Shown here one piece after another: positions 5,421-7,848 of a stretch of 64,000 bases of DNA; positions within the stretch are counted from its first letter, which is position 1, and each line of letters begins with the position of its first letter. Under the pieces are notes generated by a model. That model was given only the letters and a program-made list of their open reading frames with translations, made no database searches and was not told where the DNA came from. The position numbers were made by a program, and so were the translations under genes. This DNA comes from an uncultured Rubrobacteraceae bacterium (GTDB lineage: Bacteria > Actinomycetota > Rubrobacteria > Rubrobacterales > Rubrobacteraceae), in the NCBI GenBank assembly GCA_902806085.1, contig CADCVH010000098.1, forward strand, positions 1-64,000. The letters are read 5' to 3'.

Positions 5421-5615
5421 GTGGCGGGCGTGTATCCCGATCCCGTGAACGACGCCGACCCGAGGCTGTCCGGTATCCTGCTCGTCCACGCCTCCCTGGG
5501 CGCCCACCTCGCGGCGGCTGCCTGGGCACTGAGGAGGCGCAGGTTCCGGTATCTGCTGTATTCGGCCACGTTCCCGGTCGCGGTTGCCGCGTGGTTACGG
5601 AGGCCAGATCGCTAG
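5421..5615 (+). CDS. Possible small membrane protein
   Basis: The last 64 codons of the long plus-strand ORF ending at 5615 lie outside mutS. They read as a plausible protein: a short polar start, one hydrophobic helix around LLVHASLGAHLAAAAWAL, a basic loop RRRRF, and a second hydrophobic segment. A GTG at 5421 or 5445 could start it, but no good ribosome binding site is visible. It ends 4 bases inside the TerC gene on the other strand. It could equally be chance coding in GC-rich DNA. Confidence 0.3.
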   Translation: MAGVYPDPVNDADPRLSGILLVHASLGAHLAAAAWALRRRRFRYLLYSATFPVAVAAWLRRPDR

Positions 5616-6628
5616 GCCGGCCTTCCGCCGCGGGTCTTGTAGAGAGAGGCGGCGATGGAGACGGCGACGACCGTGGCGATGAAGGGCAGGGAGACCCAGA
5701 TCGGGACCTTCGCGTCGAAGAGGCCGGAGTAGAAGAACTTGGCGCCCACGAAGACGAGGACCACCGAGAGCCCGAGGCTCAGGTAGACGAAGCGGCTCAT
5801 CATGCCCGCGAGCATGAAGTAAAGGGGCCGCAAGCCCAGCACCGCGAAGGCGTTGGCGCTCCACACGACGAACACGCTCGACGTTATGGAGAAGATCGCC
5901 GGGATGGAGTCCACGGCGAAGACGACGTCCGTCGTGCCGACCATGATGATCACCGCGAAGAGCGGCGTCGCCATGAGCTTGCCGGCGTGGCGCACGAAGA
6001 ACCTGTCGCCCCTGAAGTCCTCCGTCATCGGTACGAGGCGCCGGACCAGGCGCAGGACCGGGTTGCGCTCCGGGTGGACCTCCGTGTCCCGGTGCAGGGC
6101 CATCCTGATGCCGGTGTAGATCAAGAACGCCCCGAAGACGTAGACCATCCAGCCGTAACGCTCCAGGAGCTCCGCCCCGATGGCGATAAAGAACCCGCGC
6201 AGCACGAGCGCCCCGACAATGCCCCACAAGAGCACCCTGTACTGGTAGCGCGCGGGCACCGCGAAGTACGAGAAGATCAGGGCGAACACGAACACGTTGT
6301 CCACGGACAGGCTCTTCTCGACGATGTAGCCGGTAAAGTACTCGCCCCCCCGCTCGGGTCCCGCCACCAGGAACACCAACACGCCGAAGAGCAGGGCCAG
6401 CCCGACCCAGAACCCGCTCAAAGCGGTAGCCCGCCGGAAGGAGATCTCGCGCTCCCCCCGCCCGAACACCAGCAGGTCCAGCACCAGTAAACCCACGATA
6501 AGGGCCGTGAACCCGACCCACGCCCAAAGGGGAAAAACGCTCAACGCGCCACCCCCGGACGGCGCGCTCCTCGTGGCGTTCTCGACGACCTCGCGTACCA
6601 CGGTGCTCCGGACAGCGTCATGGCCCAT
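5612..6628 (-). CDS. TerC/Alx-family membrane protein, probable manganese exporter
   Basis: A 338-aa protein with about nine hydrophobic helices and the TerC hallmarks EKSLSVDNVFVFALIF and a second acidic helix TTDVVFAVDSIPAIF. Together these form the metal-binding core. TerC/Alx proteins export Mn(II) or help load exported metalloenzymes at the membrane. The longest ORF starts at 6655 with a TTG inside the upstream riboswitch. ATG 6628 is preferred, although its GGGAG is unusually close; a GTG at 6601 after GGAG is an alternative. Control by a Mn(II)-sensing yybP-ykoY riboswitch immediately upstream fits the transport role. Confidence 0.88.
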   Translation of the reverse strand: MGHDAVRSTVVREVVENATRSAPSGGGALSVFPLWAWVGFTALIVGLLVLDLLVFGRGEREISFRRATALSGFWVGLALLFGVLVFLVAGPERGGEYFTGYIVEKSLSVDNVFVFALIFSYFAVPARYQYRVLLWGIVGALVLRGFFIAIGAELLERYGWMVYVFGAFLIYTGIRMALHRDTEVHPERNPVLRLVRRLVPMTEDFRGDRFFVRHAGKLMATPLFAVIIMVGTTDVVFAVDSIPAIFSITSSVFVVWSANAFAVLGLRPLYFMLAGMMSRFVYLSLGLSVVLVFVGAKFFYSGLFDAKVPIWVSLPFIATVVAVSIAASLYKTRGGRPA

Positions 6629-6645
6629 CTCCCTTCGGACGGACC

Positions 6646-6786
6646 GTGGATGCAAGCGCGACCACGGTCAGGTTTCCCTGCGTGGTCTCGCCCGCCGCGC
6701 CGGTACGCGACTGCCCGGCCGGGAGCACTCGGCTCCGTAATGTCGACCGGGACCACCCGCTCAGAGCGGGAGGCTACTCCCCAATG
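6646..6786 (-). promoter_or_regulatory. yybP-ykoY (Mn2+) riboswitch
   Basis: The minus-strand leader carries the conserved first loop GGGGAGTAG (revcomp of 6774-6782), a middle GTCGACATTAC (around 6737-6747), and the second conserved GGGCGAGACC (6684-6693), in the right order and spacing for the yybP-ykoY fold. Downstream, ACCACG-CAGG-GAAA-CCTG-CGTGGT can form a hairpin that may be the expression platform. This class senses Mn(II) and often controls TerC/Alx or MntP exporters, as here. A strong promoter lies just upstream. Confidence 0.88.
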
Positions 6787-6792
6787 GCGACA

Positions 6793-6821
6793 ATTTTACT
6801 TAAGAAACCCCGCACCGTCAA
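6793..6821 (-). promoter_or_regulatory. Sigma-70-type promoter of the riboswitch/terC transcript
   Basis: On the minus strand TTGACG and TAAAAT are separated by exactly 17 bp. The predicted start is near 6786, a few bases before the conserved GGGGAGTAG of the riboswitch. Confidence 0.8.
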
Positions 6822-6918
6822 CGGGGCGGCGGTCGTCCCGGGGACTTGGCCGCGGCGCTGTACGCGGGCCCCGAAAGCGGATAACTTATCGGGAGAACCG
6901 ACCAAGAGAGGGGGGCGC

Positions 6919-7848
6919 GTGGGCCCGAAGCCGGTGATCCTGGACGTAGACCCCGGCCACGACGACGCCGTGGCCCTGATGATGGCCTGCGGTTCGCCGG
7001 GGCTGGACCTCCTCGCGGTGACCACGGTCGCCGGCAACGCGCCGCTGGCGAAGACCACGCGCAACGCGCTGCGCGTCCTGTCCCTGATCGGGCACACCGG
7101 CGTGCCCGTCGCCGCCGGCGCCTCGAAGCCGCTCGGGCGCGCGCTCCGCACCGCCGAGGACATCCACGGCGAGAGCGGATTGGACGGGCCGGAGATACCG
7201 GAGGCTTCGTTCGAGCCCGACGAACGGAGTGCCGTGGAGCTCATCGCGGACACGCTCAGGGGGTCTGTGGAGCCGGTTGCCCTGATCCCGGTTGGACCGC
7301 TCACCAACGTCGCCGCGTTCCTGAAGGCGCATCCGGACCTGAAGGGCAAGATCTCGCGCGTCTCCCTCATGGGCGGCAGCATGGGCCTTGGCAACACGAC
7401 GCCGGCGGCCGAGTTCAACATCTACGTGGACCCCGAGGCCGCCCGCGAGGTCTTCGAGTCCGGCCTCCCCATTACGATGAGCGGCCTCGACGTCACCCAC
7501 CAGGCCGGCGCAGACAAAGCCCAGCGCGACCGCCTGCGGAATCTTGGGAACGTCGGGGAGGTGGTGGCCGGTTTCCTGGACTTCTTCGCCGGGACCTACG
7601 AGCGGGCCTTCGGCTTCGACGCCCCGCCCCTGCACGACCCCGTGGCGGTCGCCGCCATCCTGGAGCCGGCCCTGCTCCGGACGCGCACGATGCGCGTGGA
7701 CGTCGAGTGCAAGGGCGACCTCACCCGCGGCGAGACGGTCTGCGACGTCCGCGGCGTGACGGGCAAGCCCCCGAACGCGGACGTCGGCGTCGAGCTCGAC
7801 CGGGAGGGGTTCTTCGACCTGCTGCACGACTCGCTGAGACGCCTGTAG
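6919..7848 (+). CDS. Inosine/uridine-preferring nucleoside hydrolase family
   Basis: A 309-aa protein of the IU nucleoside hydrolase family, which cleaves ribonucleosides to base and ribose. DVDPGHDDA (residues 8-16) is the calcium-binding, catalytic signature. The central MGGS and EFNIYVDPEAA stretches and the C-terminal HDPVAVA are also typical of the family. The start is moved from 6646 to a GTG at 6919 after GAGAGGGGGG, because the earlier residues overlap the riboswitch on the other strand and lie outside the family. Transcribed alone, with a strong hairpin right at its stop. Substrate preference cannot be read from the sequence. Confidence 0.9.
   Translation: MGPKPVILDVDPGHDDAVALMMACGSPGLDLLAVTTVAGNAPLAKTTRNALRVLSLIGHTGVPVAAGASKPLGRALRTAEDIHGESGLDGPEIPEASFEPDERSAVELIADTLRGSVEPVALIPVGPLTNVAAFLKAHPDLKGKISRVSLMGGSMGLGNTTPAAEFNIYVDPEAAREVFESGLPITMSGLDVTHQAGADKAQRDRLRNLGNVGEVVAGFLDFFAGTYERAFGFDAPPLHDPVAVAAILEPALLRTRTMRVDVECKGDLTRGETVCDVRGVTGKPPNADVGVELDREGFFDLLHDSLRRL

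Follow-up and report, generated by a model that had tools for sequence, protein, structure and literature searches.

Among the described manganese riboswitches of the yybP-ykoY class (RF00080) are those of E. coli mntP and alx and of L. lactis yoaB, and the control of TerC proteins by such riboswitches of the ON type has a precedent (PMC9603457). The coupling of a riboswitch to an upstream open reading frame (uORF) is likewise precedented, in the B12 riboswitch of M. tuberculosis ppe2 with its uORF uPPE2 (PMC11260477), which is the nearest precedent for the arrangement reported here. Our search of the open-access literature for a leader ORF associated with a yybP-ykoY element found none. We analyzed a stretch of 64,000 nucleotides (the window) from an uncultured member of the Rubrobacteraceae, a family whose genus Rubrobacter is described as comprising highly radiation-resistant members (PMC8146576); the Mn/Fe ratio is presented in PMC13251893 as a proposed determinant of radiotolerance. 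We consider it likely that the translation of a short leader ORF in the window is controlled by a yybP-ykoY manganese riboswitch, and that terC is translated from an overlapping TTG through stop/start coupling.

A yybP-ykoY Type Element Upstream of terC

Read along the minus strand, the promoter TTGACG-17-TAAAAT is followed by GTCGCCATTGGGGAGTAGCC; a multibranched, GC-rich part leads to GGGCGAGACCACG, and a further structured part to AAGGGAGATGGGCCATG and the TerC frame (Table 1). A preliminary description of this DNA had proposed that a TerC gene is preceded by a riboswitch of the yybP-ykoY type and the promoter belonging to it, and both the RF00080 match (E 1.2e-8) and the assignment to the Alx subfamily (TIGR03718) support it; the promoter and the two conserved loop motifs are found where it had placed them. 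The protein scores 405.2 bits against a curated cut-off of 246.4 and covers positions 2-302 of the 303 in the profile; it is of the Alx type and probably exports Mn2+.

At gathering thresholds, an Rfam scan of the entire window matched no family. A permissive scan placed the full RF00080 model at 6694-6794 on the minus strand; the score was 37.1 bits, where the gathering cut-off is 45. The outcome of the model check proposed in the preliminary description, in which the lack of a match was to count against the class, is therefore divided: the match stays below the curated cut-off, yet its E value is low. No copy in the family passes the gathering score, a threshold which is a curation setting and not a biological defining feature. 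In a scan of the whole genome (4.4 Mb) the site is the sole credible copy (E 2.8e-8), and RF00080 matches were obtained in 10 of 101 related genomes, all of them under the cut-off.

A consensus structure computed from 18 Rubrobacteraceae loci, without reference to Rfam, contains the helices 12-14/138-140 (P1.1) and 21-23/131-133 (P1.2) together with junction helices, and has GGAGTA and GAGA as its facing loops, in agreement with the yybP-ykoY layout of PMC6754395. Changes on both sides are seen in 9 of the 20 consensus pairs, and the first pair of P1.1 occurs as U-A (10 sequences) or C-G (seven). The L1 sequence GGGGAGTA and the L3 sequence GAGACC occupy the facing loops between P1.1 and P1.2; because the loci were chosen partly by these two motifs, their constancy is not independent evidence. 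The fold of 6792-6600 was better than that of 199 of 200 shuffles (z -3.3). A covariance model of the family (R1) gives the site, which is one of its 18 training sequences, a score of 107.7 bits. Of 40 family genomes, 21 yield matches to this model, some of them at loci outside its training set (L067, L078, and L082). The element lies upstream of a manganese homeostasis gene. We regard it as real and its identity as an aptamer of this class as near certain, and from the class Mn2+ would be its ligand (PMC9603457, PMC6754395).

The promoter is one of only two promoter-like sites in the 3.5 kb that were scanned, where shuffled sequence would give 0.1. Since a -10-like box lies at a nearly constant distance from L1 among the relatives, the transcript should begin a few bases 5' of the aptamer. 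On the plus strand, a divergent nucleoside hydrolase gene (IU_nuc_hydro, 9e-102) occupies 6646-7848; its longest ORF overlaps the riboswitch region, and with its domain beginning near 6934 the true start is probably at about 6919.

Table 1. Features of the riboswitch and terC region, in window coordinates.
Feature	Position	Strand	Basis
Promoter TTGACG-17-TAAAAT	6793..6821	-	10/12 consensus matches
yybP-ykoY type Mn2+ riboswitch aptamer (predicted)	6682..6794	-	RF00080 match, family model R1, covarying canonical consensus fold
Loop L1, GGGGAGTAG	6774..6782	-	sequence
Loop L3 side, GGCGAGACC	6684..6692	-	sequence, consensus fold
P1.1 (3 bp)	6783-6781 (TGG) with 6685-6683 (CCA)	-	consensus fold
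Anti-aptamer hairpin, L3 strand GGCGAGACCACG with CGTGGTCGCGC	6656..6692	-	fold; swap test p<=5e-5
Anti-sequester helix, GACCGTGG (6669-6662) with CCACGGTC (6649-6642)	6642..6669	-	swap test p<=5e-5; compensated versions in relatives
Ribosome-site hairpin around AAGGGAG, GGTCCGTC (6645-6638) with GATGGGCC (6629-6622)	6622..6645	-	fold; swap test p 0.04
Shine-Dalgarno AAGGGAG	6629..6635	-	7 nt from ATG 6621, 0 nt from ATG 6628
26-codon leader ORF MTLSGAPWYARSSRTPRGARRPGVAR, ATG 6621, stop TGA 6543-6541	6541..6621	-	SD-led, overlaps terC start in 15/18 loci
terC (Alx subfamily), predicted start codon TTG, sharing TTGA (6544-6541) with the leader ORF stop	5612..6544	-	TIGR03718; frame closed upstream in L030, L042

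A Leader ORF Overlapping the Probable Start of terC

The preliminary description noted a ribosome binding site abutting an ATG, and this is indeed the case (AAGGGAG directly followed by ATG at 6635-6626). A second ATG seven bases on was overlooked, however, and with it a leader ORF for which the Shine-Dalgarno sequence (SD) is correctly spaced. This ORF is out of frame with terC and lies 3' of the aptamer, with its stop codon overlapping the likely start of the main gene, an arrangement of the ppe2 type.

An SD-led leader ORF in another frame extends across the terC start in 15 of the 18 riboswitch-preceded terC loci of the family, with an overlap of exactly four nucleotides in 14 (TTGA, GTGA, or ATGA) and of eight in one. 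The ORFs have 15-53 codons, and their starts lie 44-158 nt from that of terC; in the 14 loci with the four-nucleotide overlap these distances are all 2 mod 3, so that insertions and deletions have kept the frame. In the three loci where the leader ORF is missing (L040, L043, and L044) the ribosome site of the riboswitch feeds terC directly, and the TerC tree, the root of which is not fixed, suggests separate losses (L043/L044 and L040). For comparison, 18 of 266 leader genes in two genomes (243 kb of the genome under study and 400 kb of a second, G012) carry a similar overlapping ORF; this background of about 7% is approximate, the genes having been predicted by a simple script whose start picker did not return the terC of the window among its matches. 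Both terC genes of G012 were picked up. Compared with this background, the frequency in the riboswitch loci gives a Fisher p of 2e-13 (1e-10 after manual collapsing of clades), and we regard the leader ORF as well supported by comparison.

A conserved functional leader peptide was considered and rejected, as sequence and length vary freely and only the frame, the SD and the overlap persist; beyond the nearest relatives the peptides are dissimilar. A GGGGG stretch situated 7-8 nt before TTG 6544 may allow terC to start independently.

Competing Helices in the Expression Platform

Three mutually exclusive helices, absent from the preliminary description, are located between the aptamer and the SD (Table 1). 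In a swap test, strands were exchanged between species, using sequences that are related to each other. The exchange strongly weakened both the anti-aptamer hairpin (-22.0 versus -18.4 kcal/mol) and the anti-sequester helix (-16.3 versus -13.8 kcal/mol), and weakened the ribosome-site hairpin slightly, which lends the latter weak support; three control combinations of strands gave no significant result. Compensated versions of the anti-sequester helix occur in relatives as GGCCGCGG:CCGCGGCC, GGCCGTGG:CCACGGCC, GGCCGCGA:TCGTGGCC, and GGTTGTGG:CCGCAGCC. Taken as a comparative result, the alternative helices appear well supported.

In model energies, which leave out tertiary structure, the mean anti-sequester pairing was computed at 0.03 and rose to 0.50 once L3 was held in the aptamer; with the RNA folding before the SD is made, it reached 0.90. 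Imposing the anti-sequester helix made the initiation region cheaper to open: at the window locus the computed cost fell from 12.0 to 5.8 kcal/mol, and in the mean of the 18 loci from 11.3 to 7.6 kcal/mol, four relatives among them showing no such fall; the accessibility of the SD heptamer alone did not differ between the two computed states.

The mechanism we propose builds on the elements brought out by sequence and comparison, namely the aptamer, the promoter, the leader ORF with its conserved overlap and the covarying alternative helices. In the absence of Mn2+, the anti-aptamer hairpin would capture the aptamer's L3 strand, and the downstream strand CCACGGTCCGTC could therefore cover the site at which ribosomes bind for the leader ORF (OFF). 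With Mn2+, the aptamer would hold P1.1 and L3, and the released GACCGTGG would pair with CCACGGTC and weaken the ribosome-site hairpin (ON), a direction that we take, like the ligand, from the riboswitch class (PMC9603457, PMC6754395). Ribosomes finishing the leader ORF at TTGA would then initiate terC, a coupling for which ppe2 serves as the model (PMC11260477).

Alternative Explanations

The leader ORF could instead be a general translational feature of terC in the Rubrobacteraceae, for example by boosting weak starts, with no relay from the riboswitch. Five of seven second terC paralogs that have no riboswitch carry an SD-led ORF of 12-46 codons with a one-nucleotide overlap at the terC ATG, and the overlap is also shared by four loci (L033, L049, L034, and L035) whose riboswitch platform is of another kind, the L3 side (ACUUCCGGCUUGU) there pairing directly with ACGAGCCGAAGGAGU or a close variant and hiding the SD; a leader ORF specific to the riboswitch is thus not supported, and coupled leader ORFs may be a terC habit of the family into which the riboswitch was plugged. 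We nevertheless find the absence of any relay rather doubtful, as the ribosome-site hairpin of the riboswitch covers the site of the leader ORF and not that of terC, so that, barring independent initiation of terC, the signal has to pass via the leader ORF. The two readings do not wholly exclude each other, and a tentative combination of them seems to us a possibility worth stating: stop/start-coupled leader ORFs would be an old, lineage-wide layer of terC control, found with either of two manganese riboswitch platforms or with none, and the riboswitch would act on a pre-existing translational relay and not on the start of the exporter itself.

A regulation by transcription termination, intrinsic or by Rho, would make the anti-aptamer hairpin a terminator and the helices at the ribosome site secondary. 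In many relatives (L010, L046, L045, L012, L043, L036, L031, and others) a run of U4-U7 follows this hairpin and gives it the look of an intrinsic terminator; in L009, an actinobacterial copy that is more distant and precedes an exchanger-like gene, a textbook terminator is present, and the E. coli mntP leader is described as being under Rho as well as riboswitch control (PMC11647493). However, the run of U is missing from the window as well as from its two nearest relatives, neither a scan nor inspection by eye finds a terminator in the platform of the window, and the anti-sequester helix covaries, all of which makes termination an unlikely explanation for this locus. The same helix may have been a terminator first and now act mainly as an anti-aptamer; with the loss of the U run in the clade of the window, the translational switch would remain. 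Still less probable is that TerC begins at ATG 6628, the start codon of the preliminary description, with an N-terminal extension of 28 residues and an out-of-frame ORF arising by chance. The terC frame in the window is open back to 6655, and between 6628 and 6545 its third-position GC exceeds that of the leader frame (0.86 vs. 0.69, over a short stretch). Against this, the SD abuts this ATG with no spacer, TerC/Alx homology (TIGR03718) begins near 6532 only, and the overlap recurs among the 18 loci; moreover, the frame is stopped in several other loci that still keep the SD and the overlap, and in the two nearest relatives, L030 and L042, whose TerC proteins are 95-96% identical and where a stop eight codons above the counterpart of TTG 6544 coexists with a retained SD, ATG, and TTGA. 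ATG 6628 is thus probably not the terC start, and the remark in the same description that translation control or a downstream start was likely proves right, the likely start being at 6544. In the Rubrobacteraceae, annotated terC starts may wrongly have been placed at the site where ribosomes bind for the leader ORF.

Riboswitch Copies at Other Genes

The riboswitch of the family is also present in front of other genes. In L082 (G012:C3; contig match 67312-67430, R1 E 1.3e-9) it lies directly 5' of a gene for an ECF-type sigma factor (Sigma70_r2, 5e-19), which suggests an Mn2+-gated control of a regulator rather than of a transporter. Exchangers of the Na_Ca_ex family are preceded by it in L010 (1077-1530) and L012 (1530-1709): in the latter the ribosome site of the riboswitch serves the gene start directly, and in the former a short ORF of 70 codons is chained to one of 20 through GTGAGTAA, the chain closing on the exchanger start with TTGA. 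L003, L007, and L067 retain riboswitches 5' of apparent exchanger remnants, the downstream gene looking decayed, and in L003 and L007 a riboswitch also precedes a UspA-like gene. A shorter TerC-family gene with its own SD follows the riboswitch in L078 (1513-2575), where the counterpart of the leader ORF ATG reads ATA and its frame ends with TAG directly before the ATG.

Comparison With Known Systems

If the proposed relay holds, it would extend riboswitch-gated overlapping leader ORFs from one experimental case, the B12 riboswitch of ppe2, to the widespread manganese class, with a layout that is conserved across a family and whose every Rubrobacteraceae copy found here is missed by the Rfam cut-off. 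The element shares with E. coli mntP and alx and L. lactis yoaB the L1 sequence GGGGAGTA, the L3 sequence GAGAC and the layout of P1.1, P1.2 and junction, as well as a target of the terC family and a P1.1 that competes with a downstream hairpin; it differs from known RF00080 examples in a score under the gathering threshold and a P1.1 of 3 bp. While the switch of mntP turns on the translation of the gene itself, the three-helix platform here feeds an out-of-frame leader ORF. The protein belongs with the family TIGR03718 (R_switched_Alx, 405 bits), the name of which already refers to riboswitch control, and departs from that family in general by a probable TTG start across which a leader ORF ends. 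As in ppe2, the riboswitch would act on a uORF that is SD-led and out of frame and has a stop sharing four nucleotides with the main start (AUGA in ppe2, TTGA here); unlike ppe2, an OFF switch for B12 of an unrelated RNA class that has been experimentally shown at one locus, the present case concerns the Mn2+ class, a probable ON switch and sequence evidence from across a family.
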